This document shows, one piece after another, positions 1-27,739 of a DNA stretch of 27,739 nucleotides. A model generated the notes under the pieces. That model did not search any database, was not told the DNA's origin, and saw only the letters and a list, made by a program, of their open reading frames with translations. The first letter of the stretch is position 1. Every line of letters starts with the position of its first letter. This DNA comes from a virus: positions 1 through 27,739 of the IMG/VR virus record IMGVR_UViG_3300037071_000880; one strand, written 5' to 3'. The translations under genes were made by a program, and so were the position numbers.

Positions 1-561
1 GACACTACTGCATATTGCACGGATACCTCCGACACTCGCGCCCACTAAGGAAGCAGATACATCCGTGAAATTCCCAGTAGTTTCCCAACGAAGCAGTGCG
101 GTATTTGCATACGCTACATAGGTGACACCATTGATTTCTGCGAGAGATACTTGTGGAGTCGGGACGACGGGCGCGCCGGCAATAGGATTTGTTGAAACCC
201 ATGGTGCTCCAAAGTTAGGACTTACATAGTTCATCCCTTGTGCGGGACAGAAATACCACGTATTAACATCACCATCACGAAGTAGAAATGCGTCGTCAGC
301 TACTCCCGCGCCGGGAAAGACACTTATCTGACCTGCAGTGTACGCTACACTAAGAATGCCATCAGCATTTGGTATGATATTCTCACAAAACAGGATTTGC
401 GGGATGTTGTTCGGATTATTATCCAATACACTATTTACATTGTTTGTCGGATTCCGTAGCCTTCCATCATATTGCGGAATAATAATCGAACGATTCTGGT
501 ATCTTGTTACGAGTGGAAAGCTTGCTGCATTCAATGCTGCTGTCAGTGTGTAATCTGCCAT
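1..561 (-). CDS. Partial virion/tail protein of unknown function (3' end outside window)
   Basis: The reading frame opens with an ATG at 561 behind a good AAGGAG site and stays open for 187 codons to the window edge, so the C-terminus is missing. The N-terminus reads MADYTLTAALNAASF. The protein is rich in Asn, Pro, Gly, Val and aromatic residues, with beta-strand-like segments (for example DGDVNTWYFCPAQG and NGVTYVAYANTALLRWET), which suits a beta-rich virion component. It begins 13 bases after the tailspike gene stops, so it is probably co-transcribed with the late structural genes and made as part of the tail or receptor-binding apparatus. I recognise no family. A beta-propeller or fibre-associated protein is possible, but that rests only on composition and position. 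Confidence 0.8.
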   Translation of the reverse strand, partial: MADYTLTAALNAASFPLVTRYQNRSIIIPQYDGRLRNPTNNVNSVLDNNPNNIPQILFCENIIPNADGILSVAYTAGQISVFPGAGVADDAFLLRDGDVNTWYFCPAQGMNYVSPNFGAPWVSTNPIAGAPVVPTPQVSLAEINGVTYVAYANTALLRWETTGNFTDVSASLVGASVGGIRAICSSV

Positions 562-573
562 TTGCACTTCTCC

Positions 574-3500
574 TTATGGCAGTTCTACAAGGTGGATGAA
601 CACACTGTTGTCAACGTTAAATGGAACTGATCCACCTTCTAGTGCGACGACAACATGGGAGCCGAAGAATGCATCTTCAACAGAACTGTAGCCAAGATAT
701 CTCGTATTCGATTGTGCTTGATATAGAGATATGCGATTACCGAAAGTCATCGCTGCATCGGTAGCAAATTCCAAGCAAGAACCATACCGAAGATTATCCA
801 CTCTCGTCGGCCTTGACATTATGAATTTACCGTATGCGCCAACCGTAGCTGTCGGATCAGATTGCAAGAGTCCGACAGATATCGCTGGCATTGAAGCACC
901 GGGAAGTGCACCTTGGTATGTTAGTGTTGCACCTGCATCTGTACTGGTTGCCCAGTAGCGGTCAGTTACGGGCGCGCCCCCGGTTACTCGCATCGTAACT
1001 ACCACAGTTCCATCCGGATGGAAAGAAATGTTTGTTTCATCTACTGTAACTCCGGGTGGCGAGTTAGGCGCGCTAATATACCATGTGCCCGGTTGCCCCC
1101 AGTAATTACTCCACATTAAGCGGAAAGCACCACCGGATACAGTAACAGGAACGATGATTCTGTTAGGAGCTATGGGGTGGGTTTGTGGCAGCATAATCAT
1201 ACTGCCGCTGGGTTCTACGAGAGCGTATTCTCCAGAGAGTGCTTCGAAAATCCTGTACGGTACTGTCCAACGAGAGGGATTTCCATCGTCATCATTGAAC
1301 ATTACGTACACGCTACGTTTATCCGGTGTGAAGGTCGGATTATCATTAATCGTCAATACTGCAACGAGCTGTCCTTTGAATGGTCCATACGGGATTTTTA
1401 TTAAATTCGCAGCTTGTGCCTGTCCCGTACCAGTTAGCCAACCGGATGGTTGATAGAGAACGTATCCTTCGCTAATAGGAACAATAGTCCCGGCTATCTT
1501 GTTCGCTCGATACTTCCTTGCCATGATACGTGCGGGCGCTTCCGGATGGAATCCCGTATCATGTTTCTGTCCCCATGTGACAATATAATCTGCTTCGACA
1601 CCATCGTCAGAGAGTTTGCAAAGTGCAGGACTGCGATTCATCGTAGTGTTAGCAAACTCCGGATCAGAGTCCCATGCTACAACTTTGGAGTCCACTACAT
1701 GATTGTGTGTACCACTAGAATACCTCCATGTGTGGACAGAATCCTTGTCAACTGCACGATTCACGAAGAGTAGGCGAGATAAGAGCATTGCACCGTTAGA
1801 TCCACCACCAAGAGAGAGGGAATTTACAGTTGGTACATTGACAATGCGGCCATCAGTGGCAGGTACTTCACCATTGATGCTCATCAAGTTTTCATTAGCT
1901 TTCAATCTCGTAGTGACTTCAAGATGTTCGCCATCACCAAGTTGATAGAATGGATAGTTCTTAGTGTTAACTCCATCCTTAGAGTTCATGGTTACGAAAC
2001 CATTAGCTACGGATACCGACACTTGAATTGTTTGCGTAGCTGCTGTGTTGCCAAGACGAATGCTGCCGTCCCCGCTGTATGCTCCGTTACGACGCATAAT
2101 ATCTACGTAACCAGTGTATGCGGTGCTTGGCGTGAGCGCCGTAACTGGTACTGCGAAAGTATCGGCAGATTTTGTGACGTTCGCGCCAAACACAGATTTC
2201 GGCGTAGTCACAACAGGGTAGGCTGCATTGGCAGCGTACGCTACAATGATTGCATCAGCATTCGCGTCAATTTTAAATCCGAGTGTAGGATTCGCCACGC
2301 CCGTCGCATAACATGGAGTGAAGAACGCACTGCTGATAGTTACCACTTTCCATGTAGCACCGTTATCATTCGTAATTGACACTGGTCCAGTGCCGACGGA
2401 TCGTTTGATCCACGGAGTAAAAATCTGCGCAGTGCCAGCAGACACGACGGCTTGCAAACAAGTAGCATTAGCGCCGGTAGCAGTAAGTAACGAACAGGGT
2501 TCTCCTGCCGGTCCTGTTTGATTAAACAATGCTGTGCAATTTGTTTTCACCCACGCAGCATTTGTTAAATCTTCACTCCAGCGAGAGTTAATAGTTGTCG
2601 CAGGAGCCTCAATTGGCCATTGCGGTTTACCAGTCTGCGCATACGTGATTGGGATACCAACAGCAATTACTGCTGTAGTATTCTCATAATACGGTATCGT
2701 GTTCACGCCAAGATGCAGATGCGGTTTTTCTACCGTGAACGTATGACCAACCGTAGCATTCTTCGTAGCATCCGCATTGCTCACGCCACATGTAATCGTG
2801 ATACTGTTACCCGGCATTTGATATGACGCCTGAATCCTCTTGTATCCTGTGGGCAGTAATGTTCCATCCGCACGGAAATTAGAAATCAACGCACCAGTCA
2901 CTCCTGCATCTGTAGTAGCAATTGCCCACGTTGCAGTATTGAACCACACATGATGGTATGTACCGTCATTGAATGCCAAGTATATGAATGGTCCCGTACC
3001 TGCTTTTACGATCCATGATTCTGTATGCCATTGACCTGCGTATGCAGAACCAGAAATTGCAACTTGATGAAATGCTGCAAGTACAGTACTGGTGACAGTG
3101 CCAGTAGCTGCAGTCATGCCGCCATCGCTATCAGCCGCAGCAACTTGAGTAATACCACTTATATTAGCACCAGGATTATTGCTTTGCTTCGCCATGTTGT
3201 GTGGCGACCAACGAAGTGTCCGCATATCTGCTTGCACACATAGTCGCGGTTCTGTCCAGATGGTGCCAAGAACATCTGTGATCTTCACTACTTTGTTATT
3301 TGATGGATTTGCTGCATCAATTACTTTGACAGCTCGATCGGTGGGGGCGCGAGCATCCATAGCAATCGCACTAGTTTCCGTTCCAATCAGAGAATTCAAG
3401 AATCCATCAGGAATAACCGCTAGCGCACTTTCATCTGCATTAGCTACAGCATTAGCAATCATCTCCGCATAAGCAGCAGCTTCCGCAGCGCTCTCTGCAG

Positions 3501-4533: not shown

Positions 4534-5256
4534 TCAGGGTCTCTTTGAGACAGCATTCAAATCAGCAAGTGCTTGATCTGCCGCAATTTCCTGTGGAGTG
4601 CGCTCTTTCAAAGATGCACTCTCAGCTAGTTTCGAAGTATCTGCCAAGAGTGCAGAGAAATCTGCTTGCGGATTTGCGACATTGGTGGGAGCTGCGGTGG
4701 CTGCGGGCGCGAGCGTCTGTTCCTGCGGTCGCGTTTGTTTTGCAGTCAATGGAGTTACTGCTTGTGTGCCGCTAACAGAACTTTGCATTCCAACATTGCC
4801 ACCAACTGGATAAACACTCATTGGCGTACCTTGTACATGTTGCACATTGACAGGAATCACAGGTACATTCGGATCGTACATTTGATTTTGTGAGAGCGCT
4901 CGCGCCTGCGCTGTCTGCTGAATTGAGGAGTACAGTTGCGCTTGCAATTCCTGTTCAATCGCATGTTTCGCGTCATTATCCGGAAGCGTGTAGATGAACG
5001 TTCCCGGCATATCTGCTACCATGTCGAGTTGATCTTGTTCGCGCTTGTCATCGGTAATATATTTGTGATTTGCGAAGCCGATGGTCTTCACGCGTGATGC
5101 ACCAAGATCAATATGGAATTTTGCATAATTATGATGATGGAAATATATCTTCGGTTCCACCAAATACTCGCTTGGCGTCCTCGATTGTTCTGCAAGTCTC
5201 CTTGCATATTCATTTACCGTGACATTGGAAGAAGGGTTGACAGGATCTTGTGCCAT
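4534..5256 (-). CDS. Unknown virion-associated protein (240 aa)
   Basis: The gene lies directly after the major capsid gene and between two terminators. Residues 1-120 look folded (for example YAKFHIDLGASRVKTIGFANHKYI and GTFIYTLPDNDAKHAIEQELQAQL). The middle is low-complexity and rich in Pro, Val, Gln and Thr, and the last 40 residues are helical with Ala, Leu and Glu. This suggests an ordered head with a flexible tail, as in head-associated or minor virion proteins. I recognise no family. The ATG at 5256 has only a weak purine-rich ribosome site (GGATA), which may keep its expression below that of the capsid protein. A role in head completion is possible but rests on position only. Confidence 0.8.
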   Translation of the reverse strand: MAQDPVNPSSNVTVNEYARRLAEQSRTPSEYLVEPKIYFHHHNYAKFHIDLGASRVKTIGFANHKYITDDKREQDQLDMVADMPGTFIYTLPDNDAKHAIEQELQAQLYSSIQQTAQARALSQNQMYDPNVPVIPVNVQHVQGTPMSVYPVGGNVGMQSSVSGTQAVTPLTAKQTRPQEQTLAPAATAAPTNVANPQADFSALLADTSKLAESASLKERTPQEIAADQALADLNAVSKRP

Positions 5257-5318: not shown

Positions 5319-6524
5319 TCAACCAACAGCACCAGCAGTGAAGTTATACAGTACTGCGTTAGCAGCTGGATTCTTCACTAGATTAGTGACCTCAGTAGTG
5401 AGAGTGCCGCCAACCGCGTCAACACCATTGTCAACAGGAACTCCGGTCGTACCGTATTCCTGATTGCTAGTCTTCCGACCTGCCATGTACGCGAGTGAGA
5501 ACGTGGCCGTATCGACCGCGATCCCCATCTTCGCCCACGTACTCGTATTACCATACGCGTTGAACAGTGGATGCTCGATGATCTGGAACGAGCCGCGAGG
5601 AATACGAATGGTGTCATACTGCAGACCCCACGAAGTTTCTTGTTGTTGAACGTAGTAGGTAGAGTTGAGCCGCGCAATTGCGTGAATCACTCTTCGTGCA
5701 ACACCACCAACAAATAGAATCCGTTGGTTAGGATTCATCGGATCAGTGTTCTGCATGAACACAGGATCGAGCGCAGCTTCAAATTGCGTGTAATTCGTCG
5801 TCGCGCCAAGAGTGGTGATGTTGCCACTGGCATTGTTCTGCACAGTGTTGATAAGGCCGTCCATCGTGGAGATTGGTTGACCATTCCTAGTACCGAGGAA
5901 TTTCTGTCCGAAAATCAGTGCTTTCTCGATATCTACCGCATGGAATGCTGCACACTCTTGGCGACTCTCTGCAACGTTGGAACCACCAGCGATGACTTGC
6001 GTAGCAGCCAAAGTGCCAGTAAGAGCCCATGAATTACGGAAGATCTGCGTGTAGTTGACAATTCGATTAGCAGCAATCGAGAGAGCCGGCGGACGAAGAC
6101 TTCCCTGTTCATACGCATTTCCAATCATCCACAAACTGACAGCGGAGAGAATTGCAGCCGCGCCAATCGTACCGAATGCTCGCTGCACTTGCAATTGCGT
6201 AAGTCCAAGGACTGCAACTACCAGCATGTTCTCATTGGTAGAATCACTCCGCAGCACCATGCCAGGAAGCATGTTGTTGGTATTGGTCACGTTGAGAACA
6301 GTATCGGTGGATGCCGCGTTCGCACTGAGCGTAACGAACGGAAACACCATCGTCTTGGAGAAATAACCATGCTCGATTTGAGCAGCAGTTTCCTCTTTCA
6401 GAAGTGCGGTAATACCGAACAGTGGCGCACCACCATTTGGCATCAATCGCGTAATCGCTGCAGCGAATGACTTCTTCGCAAGATCAACAGGAAGTTGCGA
6501 AGTATTCCAGGTACCGACAGGCAT
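5319..6524 (-). CDS. Major capsid protein (SU10/DUF5309-like, HK97 fold)
   Basis: This 401-residue protein should form the icosahedral shell. Segments typical of the SU10-type capsid family are visible: NRIVNYTQIFRNSWALTGT at 153-171, a helix with HAVDIEKALIFGQK at about 195-208, and QPISTMDGLINTV at 216-228. Residues about 65-135 are a beta-rich insertion (SADxxLxV and GMVLRSDSTNENMLVV), as seen in that family. An excellent AAGGAG site precedes ATG 6524, consistent with very high expression. It follows the scaffold and putative decoration genes and is closed by a terminator. The capsid call is strong from family resemblance plus context. The exact fold is inferred. Confidence 0.9.
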   Translation of the reverse strand: MPVGTWNTSQLPVDLAKKSFAAAITRLMPNGGAPLFGITALLKEETAAQIEHGYFSKTMVFPFVTLSANAASTDTVLNVTNTNNMLPGMVLRSDSTNENMLVVAVLGLTQLQVQRAFGTIGAAAILSAVSLWMIGNAYEQGSLRPPALSIAANRIVNYTQIFRNSWALTGTLAATQVIAGGSNVAESRQECAAFHAVDIEKALIFGQKFLGTRNGQPISTMDGLINTVQNNASGNITTLGATTNYTQFEAALDPVFMQNTDPMNPNQRILFVGGVARRVIHAIARLNSTYYVQQQETSWGLQYDTIRIPRGSFQIIEHPLFNAYGNTSTWAKMGIAVDTATFSLAYMAGRKTSNQEYGTTGVPVDNGVDAVGGTLTTEVTNLVKNPAANAVLYNFTAGAVG

Positions 6525-7199: not shown

Positions 7200-8075
7200 T
7201 TAGTGACCAGAACCTGCATTGGGATCAAGAAGTGCGAGCCAGTCGGGACCAGCAGCGTCTGCTTCTTTCTTCCTGTTAACAGGATCATTACGTTGGTTGT
7301 GGCTATTCATGTCATTCACCATAGCGGAGACATAATTTTCAGCCATTTCCGTAACGCGATCGGGAGAGAGAGTTGGATTGGTAGCAGCAATAGAGAACTT
7401 CAGACTTTCAATCATCGGTGCTGCCGCCGGATGAGAAAGTACAGGATTCTTCGGAGAAGTATTCCTGAGTTGAGTCTGACGAATACGCTCGGGAAGAGCT
7501 GCGTCGATTCGTTGAGAATGTCGAGAAAATGCCGTTTCAACAACTCCAGCGTTCGCTTGCATAGCTGCTAGGAAGCCATTCTGCGCTACAGTATTCAGGA
7601 CGTCCATGAAAGCCTGGGGATCTTGGCCGGACATTGCTTTCTGTAGTGTTTCTGGCGCGAGGCCATTTGCAAAATTCAGCTTACTAGCAGCATCTCTCAA
7701 CTTTGCTGGATCTACAGCTAGCAGTGGGCCAGCCATAGGATCTTGTTGTTGGACCGGATTTCCCTTATCATCTACTGGCAGTTTAAACAGATCCTTAAAA
7801 CTATCGAGTTGGGAACCTTGACCCTTTGTCGGATCAGCATTGTTGCTAGGATTGTTGGCGTTGGTAGGATCCTGTTGATTGTTATTGTTCTGTTGTTGAT
7901 TGTTAGGATCAGCACCGGGATTCTTCGGATCAAGTTGCTTGTTAGATGGGAAGTTAGGATTGTTCGGTTGATTGTTTTGTTGATTGTTCTGCGGATTCGC
8001 CGGTCCATTAACTGGATTGCTTCGATCGCTCATACCGAAGGGAAGATTGAAACCAAGGAAATTACCACCAGCCAT
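7200..8075 (-). CDS. Putative scaffolding protein, Asn/Gln/Pro-rich N-terminus
   Basis: The 291-residue product has a long low-complexity region (residues about 20-90) of Asn, Gln, Pro and Asp. A mostly helical, charged C-terminal half follows (for example AKLRDAASKLNFANGLAPETL, and PERIRQTQLRN onward), and the end is Arg/Lys/Asp-rich. Disordered N-terminus plus helical C-terminus, size, and position between portal and major capsid gene match phage scaffolding proteins, which fill the procapsid and leave or are degraded before packaging. ATG 8075 has a TGGAGAG site. No protease motif is seen. The call is from composition and context, since scaffolds share little sequence. Confidence 0.8.
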   Translation of the reverse strand: MAGGNFLGFNLPFGMSDRSNPVNGPANPQNNQQNNQPNNPNFPSNKQLDPKNPGADPNNQQQNNNNQQDPTNANNPSNNADPTKGQGSQLDSFKDLFKLPVDDKGNPVQQQDPMAGPLLAVDPAKLRDAASKLNFANGLAPETLQKAMSGQDPQAFMDVLNTVAQNGFLAAMQANAGVVETAFSRHSQRIDAALPERIRQTQLRNTSPKNPVLSHPAAAPMIESLKFSIAATNPTLSPDRVTEMAENYVSAMVNDMNSHNQRNDPVNRKKEADAAGPDWLALLDPNAGSGH

Positions 8076-8411: not shown

Positions 8412-10373
8412 TTACTGTACTTTTGCGGGCGAGGGAAGTTGCGGTTGACCTGCAGAACCATTCTCAATTGCTTGTGCTTCTGCTTGCTCTTTTGGTCCCG
8501 CAGCCGCCTGTGTTGCCGCTTGCTTCTGTGCGATATACTCTTGTTGCTGTTGCGGTGTGCGCTCGAATTCTTTTAACCAGTGTGCGCCCATTGCCTTGAA
8601 ACCATACAGCATCATGCCAACAACATCATACTTGATATTGATTTCCGGTACAGCCATACCAAGTTGTGCAACTTGGCCAAGGAGTTCCATGTTTAACAAC
8701 TTCTCTGTTGGCGTCATTCCATCCGTCATTTTGAATTGCAATGTTGCAGTTCTCAATGCTTGCGGATCAATTTTCACCATATCCTGCGTTGTCATGTTAT
8801 ACAGTTCCTTCGGTCCTTGATACTGTATAATGTTCATTTTCACGATTTCTTTAATCGGTGCGAACCAAGCATCTTCCATTGTCATTGCTAACAATCTTGG
8901 ATGCCAATCACTCTTGTTCATTACGGTTTCGAATTCTGCTTTGGTCCTATTTCCTTTTTGGAATTGACCTTGCTGCGCATTATTAAGACCGTTTGCTTGC
9001 TGCGCCATTTGTTGTACTCGCGAAGCCATTTCTAGAATACCAACTACTTGATCATCTCGATAAGTGCTTGAGAAGATTGCGTCGGAGACGGGTTTTCCGT
9101 AAGCTCCGGCCTTAACAGGAATACGTGCGACAGACGAGGTGCGGTCAATATCTGTCTTGCTAATTCTGGATGGATCGTAGAAGATACGATCAAAGACAAG
9201 ACGCCTCTTTGATTCGATACCAGCAGCCCACAATGACGACGCCATTTCTTGGTAGGGAGTGACATTGTCACCAAAGCTCTTAGCTTGATACCCGAGTCCA
9301 TCGTCGAAAGGTTGTCCGACAACAATTGGTAAGTAATTATGGGCATTTGTCATCCTCTTGCAATAGATGATATACCGTTTATTCACTACCAATAATTTGA
9401 AGATTTGCGGAGTATTCTTCGACGGGAGATTGTTGAGTTTAAAATCACTCGGGAGAAATCTCGCGTATATGGTAGCAACCTCGTATAAGTCACGGTACTC
9501 TAACTTATCGTTGTCCCCAATCCCTGCTAGCCAAGATACCCAGTTGGTTCCAAATGTGGAAGACGCTGACAGCAGTGCCATCGGATTCACAAGAGGAATA
9601 TAGAATTCACCGGGGCTGCTCGCGCCCACTGTATACGTGTTCGTATTGCTTCTGAAAGCATCAGTCACGTTCATCGTGTTGCCAGAACCAAGATCAATGA
9701 TTAGTTGCTTCAACGCTGTTCTAGGCAAGAGTTCAACGTAGCCTACAAACTCTCCGATGGTGTGTATTTTGTTTGGTGCTACGCGCGTATCCAGGATCAT
9801 GTTGTACAGATCCATTCGCTTTGCGAAGTTACCTGCGTACATTTCTTCTGCTTGCACACCACCTTCGGATTCACGTTTTGTTGGATCGTTGATAACTGAG
9901 AAAACCTTCTTGTTTTCCCATGCCATCTCGAGACCCATGAGATTATATTTCAGTGCGTCGCGGAATGTCTTGACGAACTCGGCGCGCCAACCAAATCTGC
10001 GACCATTGTCAGAAATAACTGATTCCATTTGAGTGCCGGCATCGGCCATTGTTGGCGGCGCGAGCACTCCAAACATCGGCTCACCGGTACAGAACACTTC
10101 TGTAAAATATCCAACAGTTGCTTCTACTTGCGGCTGCACAACAGGGACAACTGTATTCTGCATCTTCTTTGCATCACCCCAATAGTTGGCCCAGCGTGCT
10201 TTCATCTGCGCATCTGTCCAATCTGTTTCGCGATAGTACACACGATCGCGATATTCGAGACCGGCACGAAGATTCAGATCATTGCCGCCAAGGAAACGAT
10301 ACACATCTTTGACGAAATTCATCATATCGTCATGTTGCTTCTGTGAGAGGATAATGGGAGTATCATTTTGCAT
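8412..10373 (-). CDS. Portal protein
   Basis: A 653-residue protein with the size, order and composition of a podovirus portal, which forms the 12-mer ring at the capsid vertex where DNA enters and the tail attaches. The N-terminal third is acidic and helical (NLRAGLEYRDRVYYRETDWT). A central region carries NTVVPVVQPQVEATVGYFTE and SSLWAAGIESKRRLVFDRIF. The end is a Gln/Ala-rich helical tail (about 600-653), as in portals with a barrel or crown extension. It lies between the large terminase side and the scaffold. ATG 10373 has AGGAGA upstream. No short diagnostic motif exists for portals, so confidence comes from length and neighbours. Confidence 0.85.
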   Translation of the reverse strand: MQNDTPIILSQKQHDDMMNFVKDVYRFLGGNDLNLRAGLEYRDRVYYRETDWTDAQMKARWANYWGDAKKMQNTVVPVVQPQVEATVGYFTEVFCTGEPMFGVLAPPTMADAGTQMESVISDNGRRFGWRAEFVKTFRDALKYNLMGLEMAWENKKVFSVINDPTKRESEGGVQAEEMYAGNFAKRMDLYNMILDTRVAPNKIHTIGEFVGYVELLPRTALKQLIIDLGSGNTMNVTDAFRSNTNTYTVGASSPGEFYIPLVNPMALLSASSTFGTNWVSWLAGIGDNDKLEYRDLYEVATIYARFLPSDFKLNNLPSKNTPQIFKLLVVNKRYIIYCKRMTNAHNYLPIVVGQPFDDGLGYQAKSFGDNVTPYQEMASSLWAAGIESKRRLVFDRIFYDPSRISKTDIDRTSSVARIPVKAGAYGKPVSDAIFSSTYRDDQVVGILEMASRVQQMAQQANGLNNAQQGQFQKGNRTKAEFETVMNKSDWHPRLLAMTMEDAWFAPIKEIVKMNIIQYQGPKELYNMTTQDMVKIDPQALRTATLQFKMTDGMTPTEKLLNMELLGQVAQLGMAVPEINIKYDVVGMMLYGFKAMGAHWLKEFERTPQQQQEYIAQKQAATQAAAGPKEQAEAQAIENGSAGQPQLPSPAKVQ

Positions 10374-10650: not shown

Positions 10651-12168
10651 TTAAAAAGCTAATGTCATTTCTTCGCCGAAGGAAGCAGTTATTTTCTCGC
10701 CAGTTCCTCCACTCATATCAAATACACGCATAAGGTTACCGCTGTTCTCCATGACAATCTTATGTGTGTATGTTGGCAAATCAAGTACATCATCCACGTT
10801 ATCTTGCTTTAGCGGGTTCCATGCTTGCGCTTGGTTCACAAATAATGAACGAACACTCGGATGAATGAGTTGATCTGCGTCTGCCTGGTTCTCTTTTGCG
10901 ATTGCTTTCAACATTTGGAAGATGCGTGAGTTCTTTGCTGCACGTTCTGGGTATATTTCATACACTGTGATGCCCTCTATACCAAGAAGTGTCATGAAAT
11001 GATTGATCCAGAATGCAAGTGTCGCTTGGTAGGCGACAGATTCTACGAAGAGTGCAGTGATACCGAATTCCAGGCAGAGTTTCAACGATTCCTGCACTTG
11101 TTCCTTTGGATCGAACTTCATGCTGCCATCTTCCTTGCGCGCGAGTTTCCTAAACATCGGTTTATCATGAACAAGGAATGCACCGATGGCAACATCATCA
11201 GATTTCTTCTTACCAACGGAAGGATCAATGATTACCCAACCAGAATGTGCTTGATCATCTGTCAAATACTCCGGCGCGAGCGCGATGAGCGTTATATCTA
11301 TGCCATGTTTCGCGCCAGCATTCTCATCATTCATTACTTCCGCTAGAAATATCTCCGGATGACCAAGATCAGTGTCACTTTGAAACTCGTCCAGCAACCG
11401 CTCCACTGGTTTCAATTCCGGCCAGATACTTTCTCCATCCTCGAGGATGGCCGCAGTTATGAAGGATAACCATGAGCTTGCAACTTTCAATTTTTTGAGG
11501 ATAGAACCTGGGTACGGGTACATATTCCCCACAAATACGTACAAACAACGCTCTGGGTCGTTTGTTTTCATGAGTGTACCCATCATCCACGATAAACTCC
11601 TGACGCTTTCAACAGCAGATTCCGCTTGTTCCTTCGATTGCATATCGTCCATGATGATAAAATCCGGACGAACGTATTTAATATTCAATCCGCGAGGGCT
11701 GCTGCCTGCGCCGATGGCTGCAAGGATGATATTTCTACCACGGAAATGAAATTTCTTCAAGTGCAAAGTCTCTTTAGAAAGTGAAAGGCGCCAATTTCCG
11801 AAGAGATTTCGAATGTTTCCGGAATCTAGTACGTCGCAAACGTCAGAAATGAAGTTTTCTGCAAGCTGCTCAGTGTTGCAGACAACAAGAATGAAGCGAC
11901 GATTGGTGAAAAGAATGGTGTAGACGACAATGAGCTTGAGAAAGATTGTTTTTCCGAAGCCGCGCGGGAGGCCAATTGCCAACCGTTGCATTCCTTCTTC
12001 AATTTGTAGATTTGCTGTGATCCATTGCCAAAGTGCGCGGAAGATTTTCGGGAAAAGATACTTGAAAATCTCCGGAACACAGAGCATTGCAAGGAAATTT
12101 AGATCTGTGCGCGCTGCGGATAGCGCTTCCTCGCGTGAAATGCCAGCTTCGAGAAGAGCATTTGCCAA
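10651..12168 (-). CDS. Terminase large subunit (packaging ATPase and nuclease)
   Basis: This motor protein cuts concatemeric DNA and pumps it through the portal. Counting from the upstream TTG at 12177, Walker A is LPRGFGKT (70-77), Walker B is FIIMDD (173-178), and the RNase H-like nuclease carries acidic residues at D318 (VIIDPSVGKKKSDD), E379 (LFVESVAYQ) and D462/D463 (DNVDDVLD). The frame has no ATG near its beginning. A TAG stop lies two codons above TTG 12177, and TAGGAG abuts that TTG, so the TTG at 12168 (spacing about 9) is preferred. The first ATG (codon 31) would delete conserved helices. It overlaps or abuts the upstream small gene. Confidence 0.9.
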   Translation of the reverse strand: MANALLEAGISREEALSAARTDLNFLAMLCVPEIFKYLFPKIFRALWQWITANLQIEEGMQRLAIGLPRGFGKTIFLKLIVVYTILFTNRRFILVVCNTEQLAENFISDVCDVLDSGNIRNLFGNWRLSLSKETLHLKKFHFRGRNIILAAIGAGSSPRGLNIKYVRPDFIIMDDMQSKEQAESAVESVRSLSWMMGTLMKTNDPERCLYVFVGNMYPYPGSILKKLKVASSWLSFITAAILEDGESIWPELKPVERLLDEFQSDTDLGHPEIFLAEVMNDENAGAKHGIDITLIALAPEYLTDDQAHSGWVIIDPSVGKKKSDDVAIGAFLVHDKPMFRKLARKEDGSMKFDPKEQVQESLKLCLEFGITALFVESVAYQATLAFWINHFMTLLGIEGITVYEIYPERAAKNSRIFQMLKAIAKENQADADQLIHPSVRSLFVNQAQAWNPLKQDNVDDVLDLPTYTHKIVMENSGNLMRVFDMSGGTGEKITASFGEEMTLAF

Positions 12169-12169
12169 T

Positions 12170-12406
12170 TTATGCAACTCCTACGCTAACGGGCGCGTGC
12201 GTTGTGCCCCACAGAGTGAGAATTATTGGCGCGCCGGCTTGCAATGCATCCAATTCTTCCCGCGTAGGTTGCCAAAATGATTGCACTACTGCAGTACCAT
12301 CTTCCAGAATCGCGTGTCGTACAGGAAGTGCTCCACACTCGTCAATAAGAACACCATGAGGAGCACCAAGCACACCATTACAACGAGTATCTTGAACATA
12401 TCTCAC
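12170..12406 (-). CDS. Conserved-type small phage protein, unknown function
   Basis: A 78-residue protein whose GTG start overlaps the stop of the preceding gene (GTGA), indicating translational coupling. The core (VRHAILEDGTAVVQSFWQPTR, then ELDALQAGAPIILTLWGTTHAPV) resembles a small family I have often seen in phages: a strand, an S-x-W-x-P segment, a helix EELDALQAG and a closing I-x-L strand. No function is known to me. Its own end overlaps the likely start region of large terminase. Position suggests a packaging accessory, but that is inference. Confidence 0.75.
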   Translation of the reverse strand: MRYVQDTRCNGVLGAPHGVLIDECGALPVRHAILEDGTAVVQSFWQPTREELDALQAGAPIILTLWGTTHAPVSVGVA

Positions 12407-17152: not shown

Positions 17153-18388
17153 ATGGAAACAACCGCAACCATAACCAATGGCGATCTTGCCATATCCGCA
17201 GAAATCACAGAGCGAGAACGAAACGTCGCACTGCTAGGTTTCTTGCCGGAAACAAAGAGTCTCACTCTTTATTGTCATCTTACGGGAGAACCAATTGCAT
17301 CTATGGTTCTCTTGCAACAAGCTGGTAAACTACCTTTCCTATCTCAATGGAAAGAACCACTGTCGTATCATCCGTTGTTTTCATTGCCGCAGAGGCAATT
17401 GCTTTCGTGGACACGACACAATTGGAATATTCTCTTCAAAGCAGCATCAGATCATGTAACTGATGTTCAGAAGAAGCAATTCCAAATTGCCTTCATGGCA
17501 ATATTGCATTCTCTAAAATGTCTAGATCAACAACATCCGGCGCTTCCCACGTTCGATGTTGTCAATTCCAATATGCAGAGACTCATCGAACTCGCATACT
17601 GGTACAATTGGCTGGAAAGTAAGCGCTTTCGCTTTCCAACACTGAGGATCAACAAACTCAATGCGAACTTGAATCTATCGGATATACACACGTATTTTGA
17701 TATCTGTGATTCTGTTCGCCATGATTACGAAACATCAAAGGAAGCAAAATATGAGGAAGCGAAACTCGAAGCTGCGCGCCGCGCCGAAAAATCCGTCGCA
17801 GGAACTCATGTTCGTGCAGTATCCAAGAAACACCTATGGAACTGGTTCCTTTCTTGTATGCAGAACCATGATGCAAAGAAGTTCGCTCGCGCCGAGTGGC
17901 TTGCATGGAAAGAAGAAAAATCAAAACTCTGGTATGCGTCGGATACTGGCATCCTGAAGCATTCACCAGACGAAGTTACCGAGATAGAAGATATGTTCCT
18001 CATTGTCTGTTCACTAGGAACTACTATCTCCCATGCATTCACGAATGAGCTCAATCTCATTCGTGACAAGATCAACAATCACCTCAAGATCTTCTCTCTT
18101 GATATGATTGATACCATCAAGCAACCAAGCGTTCGACGTGTAGGAGTTGATGGGAAACCCGTGGTGATTGCTCCCGTTCATCCCGGAGATACTCCACCAA
18201 ATCCAAATGACTTCGAGAAACGTCATATGTATCTCGTCGCGCGCGCGAAATACGATGTGGCGATCATGCAATACAATGCATGGAAAGAGAAATATGGTGA
18301 AGATCATGAACAAACCGATTCCGAAGATTCTCCAGAAGAATCTAACAAAGACAGCGAGGACAATGATGACGATCAAACTGGCGAGTAA
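17153..18388 (+). CDS. Unknown early protein with strongly acidic C-terminal tail (411 aa)
   Basis: ATG 17153 is preferred over an in-frame TTG at 17141 because GGAA then lies at seven bases. The product is mostly helical (for example LNLSDIHTYFDICDSVRHDY, then ETSKEAKYEEAKLEAARRAE). It ends with about 30 residues dominated by Asp and Glu (from KEKYGEDHEQTDSEDSPEES onward). Acidic tails of this kind occur in single-strand DNA-binding and DNA-mimic proteins, but the end lacks the hydrophobic tip of bacterial SSB. It stands two genes before the helicase, so a replication role is possible. I recognise no family. Confidence 0.8.
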   Translation: METTATITNGDLAISAEITERERNVALLGFLPETKSLTLYCHLTGEPIASMVLLQQAGKLPFLSQWKEPLSYHPLFSLPQRQLLSWTRHNWNILFKAASDHVTDVQKKQFQIAFMAILHSLKCLDQQHPALPTFDVVNSNMQRLIELAYWYNWLESKRFRFPTLRINKLNANLNLSDIHTYFDICDSVRHDYETSKEAKYEEAKLEAARRAEKSVAGTHVRAVSKKHLWNWFLSCMQNHDAKKFARAEWLAWKEEKSKLWYASDTGILKHSPDEVTEIEDMFLIVCSLGTTISHAFTNELNLIRDKINNHLKIFSLDMIDTIKQPSVRRVGVDGKPVVIAPVHPGDTPPNPNDFEKRHMYLVARAKYDVAIMQYNAWKEKYGEDHEQTDSEDSPEESNKDSEDNDDDQTGE

Positions 18389-18947: not shown

Positions 18948-20765
18948 ATGGCTATCTCTCAATCATTTACTGAAAGACTTCGCGCGCAAGCAGAAGCGGC
19001 ACGTCAGCAACTAAAAGAAGCAGAGGAAAAAAGAAGATTGGAAAGAAACGGTTCAACCGAACCGGCGAAGCCGGCGCTAGCGCCACTTTCTCCACCTACG
19101 CAATCATCTACGAAACTTTCAATCGCAGATATTCTTCGCGCCCAACAGGAGAAGAAAGATGCAACACCACCAGAAATCATTGTTCCTTCTGCGGAAGCAA
19201 TGCAGAAAGCACTTATCGCTCACTCCCTCGGCGCCATTAACTGGAACGATAAGCAACGGCAAGCAATCACATTTGGTACACAGGGAAAATCGTTTGTTCT
19301 TATCGGCGCGGCTGGTACTGGTAAGACGACAACTCTTAAAGGTGTTCTCCAAGCATTAACAGTAAATGAGCTCATTGAACCACTGAAAAGTGGAACAAAA
19401 TATCTGACAACTGGCACTCCTGGTATTGCACTTGTTTCTTATACTCGTCGCGCTGTACGTCAGATTGCAAAACAAATGCCGGAGAATCTTCGCGCCCACT
19501 GTCTTACTATTCACAAACTACTCGAATTCGAACCAATCTTCTATGAAATTCCCGATGCTGATGGGAATCTCAAGAAGACAATGCGATTTGAGCCCACGAA
19601 ACATTCTGGGAATCCACTGCCAAGGGAGTTACGCCGTGTCATTGTTGACGAATCATCTATGGTATCAACTGAGTTGTTCGAAATGCTTCGCGCAGCATTA
19701 CCGGCCAATTGCCAAATTATCTTCCTTGGCGATCTTCACCAGTTGCCCCCCGTATACGGAGAGTCAGTACTTGCTGTTAAATTGCAAGAATTGCCAGTCG
19801 TTGAACTCACTGAAGTATACCGGCAAGCTCTTGATTCACCTATCATTAGGTTGGCGACTGATATCAGAGAAGGACGCGCTATTCCTTTCACCTCGAAGAA
19901 GCGAGAAACTAGCCCTGATGGCAAGTCCAATGTCGTTATCAATCCCTGGCCGCATCGGTTATCCGAAGAAGATGCTATGGACGCTATTTCGCATCAAATC
20001 AAAGCGGTAATCAACTCAGGAAATTTCAATGAAGATGAAGACGTTATTCTCATGCCACACAATGTTGGATTGGGTACCATCGAACTCAACTTACACATTG
20101 CTAATACTCTTGGTCTTCGCCGTAATGCTTGTGTACACCATGTCATCGCAGGATATACACATTGGTACTTGGCGGTTGGGGATCGGGTTCTTGTGGACAA
20201 GCAGGATTGTATCATTCGTAGCATTGATCGCAATCCCAAATATCTTGGAAAGTTGCCAATAGAACCAAGTGAAACTCTTGATCGATGGGGCGCGTATCAA
20301 GACAACAAGGAACATCATCATGTTGAAGAATCGGATATGGATGTTGATGACCTTCTACAACAAATGTCGGAAATCAACGTGGAGGATAAGACGAATCAAG
20401 CGAGTCACACACTCAAACTTGAATCGTTGGATACAGGTGCAATCTTTACAACTGGGGAAGTTGGAGTATTTAGCGGAATGGTATTTTCCTATGCACTTAC
20501 TGTTCATAAGAGCCAAGGATCAGAATGGAGGAGAGTGTTTCTTTTTCTTCACACGAAACACCATGCTATGTGTTCACGTGAGTTGGTATATACCGCGGTG
20601 ACTCGCGCGCGCGAAGACTTGATTATTCTCTGCGAACCAGATCGCCCGGGACAAAGAGGAACACTAACAAAGGCTGCGCAGTCTCCTCGTATCAAAGGAG
20701 ATACGCTTGAAGCAAAGTTGGAATTCTTGAAGTCACGTGCTGAGGAGAAATTAAATGGTAAATAG
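18948..20765 (+). CDS. SF1 DNA helicase (RecD/Dda-like)
   Basis: A 605-residue ATP-dependent helicase. Motifs in order: Q-like segment WNDKQRQAI (99-107), Walker A GAAGTGKTT (120-128), motif II VIVDESS (231-237), motif III IIFLGDLHQLPP (257-268), an arginine region EVYRQAL (289-295), motif V LTVHKSQGSEW (517-527) and motif VI YTAVTRARE (548-556). Residues 1-80 are a charged, partly coiled N-terminal extension. An acidic insertion (about 458-480, ESDMDVDDLLQQMSEINVED) may be a partner-binding loop. Known relatives unwind DNA 5' to 3' in replication or recombination. AAGGA precedes ATG 18948. Confidence 0.9.
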   Translation: MAISQSFTERLRAQAEAARQQLKEAEEKRRLERNGSTEPAKPALAPLSPPTQSSTKLSIADILRAQQEKKDATPPEIIVPSAEAMQKALIAHSLGAINWNDKQRQAITFGTQGKSFVLIGAAGTGKTTTLKGVLQALTVNELIEPLKSGTKYLTTGTPGIALVSYTRRAVRQIAKQMPENLRAHCLTIHKLLEFEPIFYEIPDADGNLKKTMRFEPTKHSGNPLPRELRRVIVDESSMVSTELFEMLRAALPANCQIIFLGDLHQLPPVYGESVLAVKLQELPVVELTEVYRQALDSPIIRLATDIREGRAIPFTSKKRETSPDGKSNVVINPWPHRLSEEDAMDAISHQIKAVINSGNFNEDEDVILMPHNVGLGTIELNLHIANTLGLRRNACVHHVIAGYTHWYLAVGDRVLVDKQDCIIRSIDRNPKYLGKLPIEPSETLDRWGAYQDNKEHHHVEESDMDVDDLLQQMSEINVEDKTNQASHTLKLESLDTGAIFTTGEVGVFSGMVFSYALTVHKSQGSEWRRVFLFLHTKHHAMCSRELVYTAVTRAREDLIILCEPDRPGQRGTLTKAAQSPRIKGDTLEAKLEFLKSRAEEKLNGK

Positions 20766-21145: not shown

Positions 21146-21949
21146 ATGGCTCACATCCTCCGCTCCTCCGCTCTGTTTGCTGCACTCTCCGCTGGTCTCT
21201 ATCAGGAAGATACTGTTGGTGCTTCCAATGGAACTGGCACGCAAGCACAGAATCCTCCGCAAGCAACTCCTGCTCCCACTCCTGCTCCCGTAGTTATTCC
21301 GGAAGGAATGCGCGGCCAGCAATTCCACTTCCGTCGTGAGAAAATCAAGGCAGAAGGTTCGGAAGAAGTCATCGAAGTTTTCAAGCATCCTACGGTAACG
21401 ATTCCGCTGCCTGTTCCTACCGTTGAAGAATTGAAGGCAATCTTCAATGCTCCTACGCAAGGAGAGGGCGCTCGCGCCGTAGAACAGAAGTACATTCTCG
21501 ATCTGATCTTCGATGCATACTACGATCAAGTTCGTGAACAGATCAATGCTGCGCGCGACGAAGCACCAAAGACTTCCGTATCCGCAGATACGGTGGATTA
21601 TTCCAAGCTGACGATCCTTGCTCTTGCTTCCATGCCCGCATCCGAGCGTGGTTCCAAGGTTTCCGAAGAAGATATGGCTGCATTTCTGCAAGATTACTCT
21701 GCGATCATGCCGGAAGCTTCTGGAAAGGATCCTGCCAAGATCAAGGCGCAAGCTGGTATCTTGGAGAAGGGACTTCGCACTGTTCGCACGGACAAGAAGG
21801 TTCTGGAAATCATGGAGAAACTCCTTACGATCTGGGCGGGAGCGACGCAAAACATGGAAGAACATCAAGAAGTCTACGAGATGCTGACGAATCGTATCAA
21901 GAAGTGGTTGGCAACGGAACCGAAGAATGTTCTGGATTCGATCATGTAA
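21146..21949 (+). CDS. Unknown, probably abundant early protein (267 aa)
   Basis: The gene has its own promoter and a strong terminator, so it is expressed alone. Its codons differ from its neighbours: Lys is nearly always AAG, and C-ending codons are frequent, a sign of high expression. Residues 1-28 (MAHILRSSALFAALSAGLYQ) are mildly hydrophobic, and a Pro/Ala/Gln linker follows at about 33-52. A folded, charged, largely helical body then carries HFRREKIKAEGSEEVIEVFK and VEELKAIFNAPTQ. The C-terminus is helical (VLEIMEKLLTIWAGATQNME). I recall similar proteins in other phages but no function. A long antisense frame here is a codon-bias artefact. Confidence 0.8.
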   Translation: MAHILRSSALFAALSAGLYQEDTVGASNGTGTQAQNPPQATPAPTPAPVVIPEGMRGQQFHFRREKIKAEGSEEVIEVFKHPTVTIPLPVPTVEELKAIFNAPTQGEGARAVEQKYILDLIFDAYYDQVREQINAARDEAPKTSVSADTVDYSKLTILALASMPASERGSKVSEEDMAAFLQDYSAIMPEASGKDPAKIKAQAGILEKGLRTVRTDKKVLEIMEKLLTIWAGATQNMEEHQEVYEMLTNRIKKWLATEPKNVLDSIM

Positions 21950-23885: not shown

Positions 23886-23887
23886 TC

Positions 23888-24516: not shown

Positions 24517-24956
24517 AAGAAAGAAGTCATGGCGTCCCGCGTTTTGATATCCTTGTCCACAATTGCTTGCTCGCGACTGTACAGTGCAGCGACCAAGACA
24601 AGCTTCTACTCTCTTACTCTTGGGGAGCAACAACTCCTTATCCTCCAGTCTTCCCTACTCACATCCCCGGTTTTTGCTATCAATGTAAAAGCTCGGCAGA
24701 AACCTTCATTCCATATTGCAAACAATGTGGATGCCCAAAAGATAGTATACGCTACATGTGGGAGTTCTCATGGATAATGCAGACATATTTGCTCTCCTTG
24801 ACACCGAAATCGATGCTATCGGAAGTGGGAACGGACGGCAAATCACTGGCAGGATTCCTATTCCTGGACTTTCACATGAGGATATCGAATCCCTCAAGGT
24901 TCAGGGAAATCCTGTTGCAGCGCTTGCAATTGAAACTACAGATAAAGCATATATAA
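24423..24956 (+). CDS. Zinc-ribbon protein overlapping both neighbours
   Basis: This frame contains a classic zinc ribbon, C85-x2-C88-x10-C99-x2-C102 (GFCYQCKSS then YCKQCGC). It follows a region with YERLERWRFELLLLPRGFLQ and VPRFDILVHNCLLATVQCSD that reads like a genuine phage domain. ATG 24423 has only a GGGTGGG stretch upstream and lies inside the previous gene. The frame stays open to 24956, overlapping the nuclease gene by 187 bases, which is unlikely for the true end. A C-CCA-AAA heptamer at 24734-24740 would allow a -1 shift onto TAG 24743, ending the protein just after the ribbon (107 residues). DNA or protein binding is likely. Confidence 0.5.
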   Translation: MQQLGRSDYERLERWRFELLLLPRGFLQWQLKERSHGVPRFDILVHNCLLATVQCSDQDKLLLSYSWGATTPYPPVFPTHIPGFCYQCKSSAETFIPYCKQCGCPKDSIRYMWEFSWIMQTYLLSLTPKSMLSEVGTDGKSLAGFLFLDFHMRISNPSRFREILLQRLQLKLQIKHI

Positions 24957-25885
24957 CGCTGCATAAGCATAAGAATGTGGTGAGTAATTCCATTCTTTCT
25001 AGTCTACATTCCTGCCCGCGCAGATTCATTCAGGAAAAGATTAAAGCGAATAACCGGGAACTCCAAGGACTCCCTGAACAACCGAACATCGATTTCGTAT
25101 TCGGCCACTCTGTTGGTGCTGGTGTTCAATGCTATCTAGCGTTCGATTGTAATATTGAATATGGAATCTTCGCTGCATTCCTAGCGTGGAGATACGACTT
25201 TGACTTCGGGCGCGAGGACTACTATGCACGAAAGAAGAAAACTATCGAGCGAGCACTATTGGCTGTACAAATATTCAATCACTGGTGGACAGCCAACTTT
25301 AGTGAGTGGGAAATTTATCGACTGCCGGACGGAAAGCCAGCGGTGGAACTTTCTTTCTGCATTGACTTTGGAAAATATAAATACTTTGGTCATATCGACC
25401 TCATCCTCCGAAACAAAAGAACCGGTCGTATTGCGATTGGAGAGAATAAGACTACCGGATACTCCAATCCTCACCCAGCGGTCTATCAGAATTCCGGGCA
25501 AGCACTTGGCTATGCTATTGTACTCGATAAAATTGTTGGGCAATTGGCGGATTACGATGTACTCTACTATGCTTATTCCTCTGTTGGAGAAGAATGGCAT
25601 CACTTCCCTTTTGCAAAGACAACTGCTGCAAAGCTTGAGTGGGTACAAGACAGGTTTATCGACAATGGACATGTCGAACAGTATTTCAAACTACAGCACT
25701 TTCCAAAGAACGGAGGTAGCTGCTTCCAGTTTAACCGTCCGTGTCAATTTTTCGGAGACTGCGATATCGTTGATAGAAAGAGAATGGAAGCGTTACCTGT
25801 GTTGGATGATGTAGATGCAGGTTATCCCGTGGATTTCTGTGTGCATGTGAATGATATCATTGTTCAACAAGCGGAGAAAGTATGA
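24770..25885 (+). CDS. PD-(D/E)XK exonuclease with Fe-S-type cysteines (Cas4/RecB-like)
   Basis: ATG 24770 behind GGGAG is chosen; an in-frame GTG lies at 24758. The 371-residue product has the PDDEXK_1 signatures: SILSSLHSCPRRF (74-86), GHID with D210, GENKTTG with E225 and K227, and QALGYA from Q244. Cysteines C82, C318, C325 and C331 flank the nuclease core, as in the 4Fe-4S clusters of Cas4 and AddB. The expected role is DNA end resection for recombination or replication. Residues 3-17 (NADIFALLDTEIDAI) repeat in the SSB-like protein further downstream. It is followed by coupled genes for a small protein and a Sak4-like ATPase. Confidence 0.85.
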   Translation: MDNADIFALLDTEIDAIGSGNGRQITGRIPIPGLSHEDIESLKVQGNPVAALAIETTDKAYITLHKHKNVVSNSILSSLHSCPRRFIQEKIKANNRELQGLPEQPNIDFVFGHSVGAGVQCYLAFDCNIEYGIFAAFLAWRYDFDFGREDYYARKKKTIERALLAVQIFNHWWTANFSEWEIYRLPDGKPAVELSFCIDFGKYKYFGHIDLILRNKRTGRIAIGENKTTGYSNPHPAVYQNSGQALGYAIVLDKIVGQLADYDVLYYAYSSVGEEWHHFPFAKTTAAKLEWVQDRFIDNGHVEQYFKLQHFPKNGGSCFQFNRPCQFFGDCDIVDRKRMEALPVLDDVDAGYPVDFCVHVNDIIVQQAEKV

Positions 25886-26112
25886 TAGACGTTGCAAACA
25901 GAGCTACTGGTAGAACTACCAGAATTATACTTGCTTCTTTATGGCAAGCATCGCATACCCCAAATCAATGGGTTCTTTGTAGCGATCATTGGCCTGATGT
26001 ATCAGGTGCAGAGAATCTTATGAGGAAACTTAAAGAGACTAGTGAGTTTATACATATGCCAGTGAAAGTTCGGCGCGAAGATGTTCGTGTCTATATCATG
26101 TACGAATCATGA
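25882..26112 (+). CDS. Small GRTTR-motif protein (76 aa)
   Basis: The ATG at 25882 overlaps the nuclease stop (ATGA), and its own stop overlaps the next start. The N-terminal ATGRTTRIILASLWQA resembles the GRTTR segment of a group of small phage proteins that look like shortened P-loop folds. A strand (NQWVLCSDHW), a helix (ENLMRKLKETSEF) and another strand follow. There is no GKT/GKS, so ATP hydrolysis is unlikely. I know no function. Its location between nuclease and recombinase suggests an accessory role. Confidence 0.65.
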   Translation: MIDVANRATGRTTRIILASLWQASHTPNQWVLCSDHWPDVSGAENLMRKLKETSEFIHMPVKVRREDVRVYIMYES

Positions 26113-26930
26113 AACTCACTGAATACAAACCATCCGCCGCGCGGCATATCATGTGCTACGGTCCACCAAAATCTGGTAAGACCGTAGCAATCCTCATGCT
26201 TGCCATGTATGGCTATCGTCTTCACTATCTCGATGGTGAGGATGGAATCAAATCTGCGTGGACAGTTGATAATAATGGCAAGCGAATTATAACAGATGAC
26301 GCTCTCGCCAACATCGAACTGTTCCGATTGCCGGATACCATGATGTATCCAATCATGTTGGAAACTGTACTGAAAGTCATCAAAGGTGGACCATGCAAAA
26401 TTTGCCACAATCATGGCAAAGTAGATTGTCCAGTTTGCGCGAAGACGCCGGGCGCGAGCATTGCAACAATCGACGTGACAACATTCACAGCGAAAGATAT
26501 CTTGGTGATCGAGTCAGTGACACAACTCGGCAACAGTGCTATTGCTACCATCAAGAAATCAGATATTGCAAAGAGTCTCATGGCAGATGATTTGAAACTG
26601 TCATGGGATGAATGGGCAAGACAGGGATTTCTACTGGATAGAATTTTCTCCATTGTACAAACTGCACCATTTAATGTGATTTGTACCAGTCATGAAGAAC
26701 TATCGAAGATGGAAGATGGTAAAGAGAAGATTGTACCGAAGATGGGTACAAGAAACTTTTCGGCCGCGAGCGCCAAATACTTCGATGATGTTGTGTATTT
26801 CGACAAGGTGAATAACAAACTCAAACAAGCATCGAATGTCACGTACTCCAACAACATAATCACAGGTTCTCGTTCTGGAAAACTTGTTGAAAAGGAGAAT
26901 TCACGTGGCCTTATTGAACTATTCGAGTAA
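26109..26930 (+). CDS. Sak4-like RecA-fold ATPase with zinc-finger insertion
   Basis: This 273-residue P-loop protein has Walker A GPPKSGKT (18-25), a second strand with LHYLDGEDGIKSAW, Walker B-like DILVIESVTQLG (130-141) and a sensor segment NVICTSHEELS (189-199). It resembles the Sak4/AAA_24 phage ATPases, which act as single-strand annealing or RecA-like recombinases with an SSB. Between strands, residues 96-110 hold CKICHNHGKVDCPVC (C-x2-C-x7-C-x2-C), a probable zinc site of DnaJ type that I do not regard as usual for this family. It is translated by coupling (TCATGA) after the small GRTTR gene. A replication-initiator ATPase is an alternative. Confidence 0.8.
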   Translation: MKLTEYKPSAARHIMCYGPPKSGKTVAILMLAMYGYRLHYLDGEDGIKSAWTVDNNGKRIITDDALANIELFRLPDTMMYPIMLETVLKVIKGGPCKICHNHGKVDCPVCAKTPGASIATIDVTTFTAKDILVIESVTQLGNSAIATIKKSDIAKSLMADDLKLSWDEWARQGFLLDRIFSIVQTAPFNVICTSHEELSKMEDGKEKIVPKMGTRNFSAASAKYFDDVVYFDKVNNKLKQASNVTYSNNIITGSRSGKLVEKENSRGLIELFE

Positions 26931-27168
26931 AGACAAGATGATGACTTGCACTCTTTGCAACGGGAATGGATTCATTCCAGTGGAACTTCGTGTGAACATC
27001 CCGAGGTATCTCCTCGCGCCCCTCCCACCAAAAGAATTTACCTCATTCGATATGCTTGAAGTACGAGACTTCCTGTTCTCGCTTCTACATCCGGATGAGT
27101 TTGGTTATTCAGTGTCTGATGAAGTAAAAACAAAAGTGCGATCACTTCTGAAGTCACCGAATATCTGA
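26905..27168 (+). CDS. Small protein with CxxCxGxG motif (87 aa)
   Basis: The GTG at 26905 lies seven bases after AAGGAG and overlaps the ATPase end by 26 bases, so the upstream TTG codons are less likely. The N-terminus carries CTLCNGNGFI, half of a DnaJ-type CxxCxGxG zinc finger. The rest is Pro-containing and helical (IPRYLLAPLPPKEFTSFDML). One half-site would need a second to hold zinc: a dimer, or the neighbouring ATPase with its own CxxC pair, could supply it. I recognise no family. Confidence 0.65.
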   Translation: MALLNYSSKDKMMTCTLCNGNGFIPVELRVNIPRYLLAPLPPKEFTSFDMLEVRDFLFSLLHPDEFGYSVSDEVKTKVRSLLKSPNI

Positions 27169-27230
27169 TGCGGCAGTCTCCGCAAATGTCCCTTCCTAGT
27201 AACCAAGCAACCAAGGAGTTAATATCCATC

Positions 27231-27725
27231 ATGGCAAATTCCAAGCAAATGTCCGCTGATGACCTGTTCAACCTGCTCGATAAGGAAATCGATGATATCA
27301 AGGATCTTCCGTCATTCAAGTCTCCGTTCACTGGAATGTACAAGCTGCATGTGAAGGCAGAACCGAAGCCAATCAATGACAAGCCGGCGTTGGTTTTCAA
27401 CTTCACGGTGAGGGAACTCATTGAACTGGCGGATAATACCATTCCGGAAGAAGAACGCTCCAAGGCTGGAGATAAGTTCAACGTTACTTGCGTTCTGAAG
27501 GATGACGAAGGCAATGATTCTGAAATGGGTTGGGGCAAGGTAAAGGAATTCGCAAAGCCTTTCCAAGCACATTTCAGTATTTCCAATCTGCGTGCAGTTA
27601 TCCAAGGTCCGCTGACGGAAGGAGTTGATATCACTGCACTCGTCAAGCGCGTGCTGCGGAAGAAGAAGACCAAGGATGAAGACGATCAGTGGGATGCAAG
27701 GGTAGAGAATATCACGATTGATTAA
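27231..27725 (+). CDS. Putative single-strand DNA-binding-type protein (164 aa)
   Basis: ATG 27231 (MANSKQMSADDLFNLL) is chosen; AAGGAG lies 12 bases before it, and an in-frame ATG at 27168 overlaps the previous stop. The body is strand-rich (GMYKLHVKAEPKPINDKPAL, FNFTVRELIELADN, KFNVTCVLKDDEG) with a basic KRVLRKKKTKDEDD end. This fits an OB-fold-like protein and the usual companion of Sak4-type recombinases. Lys is mainly AAG and codons look optimised, suggesting abundance, as expected for an SSB. The N-terminal DDLFNLLDKEIDDI copies a motif in the nuclease. The SSB call is inference; no diagnostic motif exists. Confidence 0.7.
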   Translation: MANSKQMSADDLFNLLDKEIDDIKDLPSFKSPFTGMYKLHVKAEPKPINDKPALVFNFTVRELIELADNTIPEEERSKAGDKFNVTCVLKDDEGNDSEMGWGKVKEFAKPFQAHFSISNLRAVIQGPLTEGVDITALVKRVLRKKKTKDEDDQWDARVENITID

Positions 27726-27739
27726 GTATCAATTGTCTC

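Follow-up and report, generated by a model that had tools for sequence, protein, structure and literature searches.

What has filled a fragment of a phage genome with copies of a single eight-base word? The window analyzed here, which is the whole stretch of 27,739 nt from virus record IMGVR_UViG_3300037071_000880 (27.7 kb, denoted G000, with a GC content of 45.4%), contains 16 exact copies of the octamer GGCGCGAG/CTCGCGCC. The plus strand reads eight of them as GGCGCGAG and eight as CTCGCGCC, and the density is 0.58 per kb, or 577 per Mb. The enrichment acts at the level of the DNA, runs genome-wide in both orientations without positional conservation, and is found in two close phages, with another dialect in a third. 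We tentatively attribute it, with well under even confidence, to a pressure particular to this lineage that favors high copy numbers of a degenerate word, the cause being most likely a protein that reads the word, with a Chi-like signal as the most concrete candidate.

A degenerate word family enriched at the DNA level

An earlier note on this DNA, made from the letters alone, had listed the 16 copies, and every coordinate proved correct. Its claim of strong over-representation is borne out by low-order Markov models, which predict 0.5 to 1.1 copies (both strands: 0.54 at order 1, 0.50 at order 2, and 1.07 at order 3). The expectation is 2.7 at order 4, 9.2 at order 5, and 13.5 at order 6, and orders 5 and 6 absorb the excess because enrichment extends to the 6-mers and 7-mers that make up the word. 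An order-6 model, named in the note as a check on the claim, nearly reproduces the count (13.5 against 16), but solely because it already contains the excess, and an order-6 test of GGCGCGAG is therefore circular. Among the 168 octamers that share its base composition, GGCGCGAG ranks first with 16 copies, the remaining 167 having a mean of 0.43, and GAGCGCGG, which is GGCGCGAG read backwards, has 0 copies in the window.

All 16 copies lie inside genes. Synonymous shuffles that keep the protein and the codon usage (400 runs) yield 0.8 copies (maximum 5 in the 400 runs), where 15 are counted in genes. Stricter versions that also keep one or two bases of codon context yield 1.0 and 3.1 ± 1.35 (maximum 6), respectively, and codon-pair bias alone is insufficient to explain the 15, as the note had argued. 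When copies are split by orientation and codon frame, five of six classes exceed their synonymous shuffles and the remaining class has 0 copies with 0.05 expected, in agreement with the description of copies in both orientations and several codon registers. Codon usage, codon-pair context, and simple composition are ruled out as causes by the shuffles and the same-composition octamers, and GGCGCGAG together with its close variants stands ~15 to 30 times above prediction from composition, proteins, or codon use.

The copies are scattered over the whole window. Seven are read by their genes as Leu-Ala-Pro: 4706..4713 (+) in open reading frame (ORF) 4534-5256 (−), 7654..7661 (+) in ORF 7200-8075 (−), 10057..10064 (+) in the portal gene, 11273..11280 (+) in the terminase large subunit gene, 12674..12681 (+) in ORF 12403-12801 (−), 16094..16101 (−) in ORF 15824-16171 (+), and 27013..27020 (−) in ORF 26884-27168 (+). 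Gly-Ala-Ser is encoded at 35..42 (−) in ORF 1-567 (−), at 9619..9626 (−) in the portal gene, and at 26451..26458 (+) in the Sak4-like AAA_24 gene, and Ala-Arg-Ala at 3346..3353 (+), antisense in ORF 574-3789 (−), at 17886..17893 (−) in ORF 17141-18388 (+), and at 21471..21478 (−) in ORF 21146-21949 (+). The remaining copies encode Gln-Ala-Arg-Ala (4899..4906, −, in ORF 4534-5256, −), Arg-Arg-Glu (13064..13071, −, in a terminase small subunit-like gene), and Gly-Arg-Glu (25209..25216, +, in the PD-(D/E)XK exonuclease gene, where the relative G002 has the 7-mer GGCGCGA at the same site). Checks of spacing and strand bias that the note had proposed gave near-random spacing (coefficient of variation 0.65) and no clear orientation rule. 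Even spacing of the 16 octamers is unsupported, as 7% of random sets are equally even. Regulatory sites of the stoperator or promoter kind are intergenic with a fixed orientation, and the word, with 16 of 16 copies in ORFs and eight per strand, does not have this character.

The note had treated a single octamer as the unit, and this did not hold. The core GCGCGA occurs 52 times on both strands of positions 1..27739 against 13.6 expected (order 1), and the 7-mers GCGCGAG and GGCGCGA occur 27 and 26 times against 2.8 and 2.6. Base preferences around the 52 cores extend over the four preceding and the two following positions, approximately (T/G)-Y-S-S-GCGCGA-(G/A)-S. The actual unit is wider and degenerate, ~SSGCGCGA(R)S, and GGCGCGAG is its commonest member. 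Near matches add copies, as had been noted: GCGCGCGA occurs 15 times, GGGCGCGA 12 times, and CGCGCGAG 10 times, and the related words CGCGAGCG and CGCGCGCG are enriched too (palindromic words are counted twice in both-strand k-mer counts, the 14 of CGCGCGCG being seven places). The neighboring contexts AGCGCG, GCGCA, and TCGCGA are depleted. A second, weaker word set in the window, comprising CAATTGC/GCAATTG (27), TTGCAA, and ATGGCAAG, also exceeds the synonymous-shuffle expectation, with CAATTGC at 23 in genes against 8.2.

The tripeptide Leu-Ala-Pro is itself in excess in the window, with 8 to 9 occurrences against ~3, and 7 of 9 are spelled CTC GCG CC; the word therefore appears to influence protein sequence.

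Turnover and dialects among related phages

Most genes of the window are common to two uncultured relatives, G001 and G002, at ~50 to 88% protein identity (~55 to 80% for G002). G002 contains 15 copies of GGCGCGAG against 1.8 to 1.95 expected and has a dialect of its own, with 33 to 34 copies of CCGGCGCG (2.8 to 3.7 expected) and 24 of GGCGCGAA. G001 is equally close but has 0 copies of GGCGCGAG and favors CACGCCG (26) and CACGCGC (23). Word enrichment is absent from four cultured relatives, and the remaining relatives by capsid protein likewise lack it, holding scattered copies near expectation. Among 12-kb windows (n = 55), those of G000 and G002 hold the three highest octamer scores, with a few relatives close behind for other words. 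A third word-bearing candidate, L028 (contig 3300037423_000707), was 100% identical to G002 (3300037471_000539) over 9.6 kb; these are one phage in two metagenomes, and only two independent phages with the word therefore remain.

In codon alignments, G002 retains 2 of 24 G000 words (8.3%), against a background of 7.8% for 7-mers in general, and G001 retains 0 of 26; 9 of 42 G002 words (21%) are retained in G000, and 4 of 94 (4%) in G001. As G000 words are kept at homologous sites in G002 no more than any 7-mer, the copies turn over, and their number seems to matter but not their place. The note had looked to conservation in related phages, which holds for the genome-wide enrichment common to G002 but not for the positions of the sites.

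Such turnover could also arise with no reader and no function, as a neutral signature of context-dependent mutation by the replication-repair machinery of phage or host. Word sites that are not conserved between relatives fit this explanation, as do the many overlapping enriched variants (GCGCGCGA, GGGCGCGA, and CGCGAGCG) beside depleted nearby contexts, the private over-represented, though weaker, words of other phages of the group, and the order-5 expectation, which at 9.2 of 16 places much of the excess in 6-mers. A neutral process would, however, need a context of 7 to 8 bases against a 45% GC background, and order-3 and order-4 models, which cover known mutation contexts, yield only 1.1 and 2.7 copies. 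The codons that hold G000 words alter amino acids above average (identity to relatives of 0.53 to 0.54, against 0.62 to 0.68 overall, in codon alignments), although in the opposite comparison the G002 word codons are more similar to G000 (0.77 against 0.68 overall). Furthermore, the two equidistant relatives, G001 and G002, differ completely. We regard a neutral long-context mutational signature as possible without being probable, and as nearly as likely as the Chi-like reading. Selection on the DNA itself, which the note had suggested, is partly upheld, insofar as the pressure is on DNA rather than codons.

The dialects also bear on a site at which a phage-encoded factor (primase, replication initiator, or DNA-organizing or packaging protein) would bind or initiate, with a specificity that drifts between relatives. 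Such a site would agree with the genome-wide occurrence on either strand, with the turnover, and with the change of dialect; the dialects are related (GGCGCGA, CCGGCGCGA, and CGGCGTGA), and the group encodes its own primase, polymerase, and helicase. Known phage primases, however, read ~3 bases, and orthologous factors are similar in G001, yet other words are found there. The window, which is truncated, lacks the primase gene. We consider a phage-factor site quite unlikely.

Other relatives have distinctive sequence features of their own. G002 contains a 486-codon open frame antisense across the major capsid gene (L017:7163-8620, −), probably a by-product of the GC-rich words. L104 and L105 contain recurring AATGTGCC/CACATTGG words that may form a dispersed repeat, and L040 and L095 are enriched in CCTAGGCG/CTAGGCGC (7 against 0.2 in 12 kb of L040). 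L013 and L014 are distant relatives, the former rich in AACAGGATAAACAG-like words (AGGATAAA 14 against 0.8). L025 (EBPR podovirus 3) is enriched in GCGGCCGC/ATGCGGCC and has 8 copies of ACAAGCGG against 1.0, a word that we take to resemble the core of the Pasteurellaceae uptake signal.

A Chi-like candidate and the search for a host

Under the reading that we favor, pressure would keep many copies of ~SSGCGCGA(R)S wherever the proteins allow, and a protein would read the word as a recognition signal, with a benefit that rises as copies accumulate, wherever they lie. The most concrete candidate is Chi-like: the word would act as a signal to a host recombination enzyme that processes DNA ends (RecBCD/AddAB type), and each copy would shield phage DNA ends from degradation and pass them to recombination, in which the phage Sak4-like recombinase and exonuclease may join. 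We infer that a protein reads the word and that this reader belongs to the recombination machinery; membership in the Chi class is not claimed. Many copies, turnover, and dialects resemble Chi or uptake words, and the phage gene set, which includes a RecB-like exonuclease, a RecD/Dda-like helicase, and a Sak4-like protein, counts in favor of this reading. Escherichia coli phages without recombination functions of their own carry Chi in excess (PMC3784561). The Chi of Lactococcus/Streptococcus, GCGCGTG (PMC5959072), is one base from the GCGCGAG of G000, and G001 is enriched in it (20 against 3.9 expected). Table 3 of PMC5959072 does not list GCGCGAG as a Chi word, and none of five Chi words of that table counted in G000 is strongly enriched.

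Several observations weigh against a Chi-like signal. Chi in E. coli, with a host observed/expected ratio of ~2.3 and a phage density of ~0.2 per kb (PMC3784561), is far less exceptional in host and phages than the word at its density in the window. In the cultured relatives, known Chi words show weak enrichment at best, in small counts and without host specificity. Only G000 and G002 carry the word, and no clear preference of orientation with respect to transcription or to genome half was found in the window, where Chi might show one. Unlike Chi, the word has no known host that shares it, has a higher excess, forms a degenerate family, and lacks orientation bias; no phage-like excess was found among ~1,040 sampled bacterial genomes. 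As for individual phages, the Pseudomonas syringae Chi GCTGGCGC occurs 5 times in PaMx41 (L022), where 1.1 copies are expected, and the E. coli Chi GCTGGTGG 7 times in Aeromonas phage P5 (L024), where 1.7 are expected; a comparably mild excess is seen in other phages. In a bolder form of the Chi-like reading, which we hold to be doubtful, the word would be the signal of an undescribed pair of recombination enzyme and Chi (or of a phage-encoded reader), with specificity changing between sister phages of one clade, and each lineage would re-create ~2 core words per kb at other positions and pay for this in amino acid changes.

Imitation of the word use of a host genome, or descent from it, would require no specific reader. 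Phage and host word use are often alike, and each set of words is confined to close lineages and varies from relative to relative, as would be expected if the hosts differed. The word and its reversed control were counted in the ~1,040 genomes (369 Gammaproteobacteria, 300 Burkholderiales, 190 Alphaproteobacteria, 145 Verrucomicrobiota, and 40 mixed named genomes), which cover a small share of genera, the phage host being not identified. The ratio of word to control was mostly 0.3 to 1.3, against 16 to 0 in the window. Higher ratios came with few counts or reached at most about 2.4, apart from G796, and the highest well-counted ratio in Gammaproteobacteria was ~2.4 (G380). The densest genomes have 400 to 490 copies per Mb, approaching the window, but with similar control counts. 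G796, with the highest ratio (39 against 5), was rejected as a host-like genome, a 179-kb sample of it having no word excess; in samples of both G380 and G796 the leading words were others and GCGCGA was not in excess. In the raised-ratio genomes G380, G204, G208, G504, G108, G796, G838, G807, G881, and G762, which were partly read, GCGCGA was never the leading word; G881 came nearest to the phage word use, with GCGCGAG at 40 against 17.3 in 27 kb, but without CGCG excess. No relative of the window terminase was found among the genome contigs searched, and in the literature on the word and the phage family we found no account of such a word. Host-word imitation, which the note had listed as an explanation, has no support in these genomes and, given the small share of genera sampled, is weakened rather than rejected; we judge it unlikely. 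In Burkholderiales genome G504, the palindrome TTACGTAA occurs 12 times against 0.2 in 60 kb (L238-L240; both-strand counts).

The word might instead be a target of DNA modification or restriction. Palindromes are strongly avoided in the window (both-strand counts: CCATGG 4 against 20.8 and TCGCGA 8 against 24.8, with TGATCA 8 against 23.5, ATCGAT 10 against 25.8, and TGGCCA 4 against 14.6 as further cases), which suggests restriction pressure. Restriction yields avoidance, however, and not excess, and the core word GCGCGA is nonpalindromic. A protein scan of the window and G002, which did not extend to a number of short ORFs or to the part of the genome beyond the window, detected no methyltransferase, and the phage-encoded modification target raised by the note is accordingly unsupported. 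Because no methyltransferase was found, modification is the least likely explanation, and we think it highly improbable; a phage-encoded reader and host imitation are each less likely than the Chi-like and neutral explanations.

The phage and its place among known exceptional words

To judge from its predicted proteins, the window is part of an uncultured podovirus-like phage, Fredfastierviridae-like (PaMx41/119X group), with an SU10-type capsid. The major capsid protein (SU10_MCP; 5319..6524, −; PF17236, E 2.4e-35) places the phage, and the portal protein (8412..10373, −) and terminase large subunit (10651..12177, −) were identified by homology. Compared with Pseudomonas phage PaMx41 (Fredfastierviridae), the terminase large subunit is ~35 to 36%, the capsid 40%, and the portal 28% identical, and the homologous terminase, SU10-type capsid, and portal stand in the same gene order. 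The terminase and capsid also match Polaromonas phage Tiera, Aeromonas phage P5, and EBPR podovirus 3. The putative recombination genes encode a Dda/RecD-like helicase (18948..20765, +; AAA_30 and UvrD_C_2), a RecB-like PD-(D/E)XK exonuclease (24758..25885, +), and a Sak4-like recombinase (26109..26930, +; AAA_24). No tRNA genes were found in the window, G001, G002, or G003.

If a protein reads the word, the host and the recombination signal would be predictable from a metagenomic phage alone, and G000, G001, and G002 would form a natural series of a changed signal; if the word is neutral, it would represent a mutational signature of long context and unusual strength. In both cases, a strong pressure on the DNA, which appears to shape protein too, would escape tests made at the codon level alone.

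Two sister phages share a strong DNA-level bias toward GGCGCGAG, the third having another bias, and the word belongs to a known kind of exceptional genome word. Like the Chi sites of RecBCD, AddAB, and RexAB (GCTGGTGG, GCTGGCGC, and GCGCGTG), the phage word is short, GC-rich, and asymmetric, lies genome-wide inside genes, and is lineage-specific. DNA uptake sequences (DUS/USS) are likewise present in high copy number, mostly tolerated in genes, and represented by related words in related lineages, but they are longer and belong to transformable bacteria, whereas the phage word is shorter and degenerate, with no such genome among those sampled. HIP1 (GCGATCGC) of cyanobacteria is also a GC-rich octamer far above expectation, with a debated cause; it is palindromic and found in bacterial chromosomes, whereas the phage word is nonpalindromic. 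Mycobacteriophage stoperators are likewise short, asymmetric sites dispersed in many copies over a phage genome, but they are longer, mostly intergenic, and oriented, whereas the phage word lies inside genes in both orientations.

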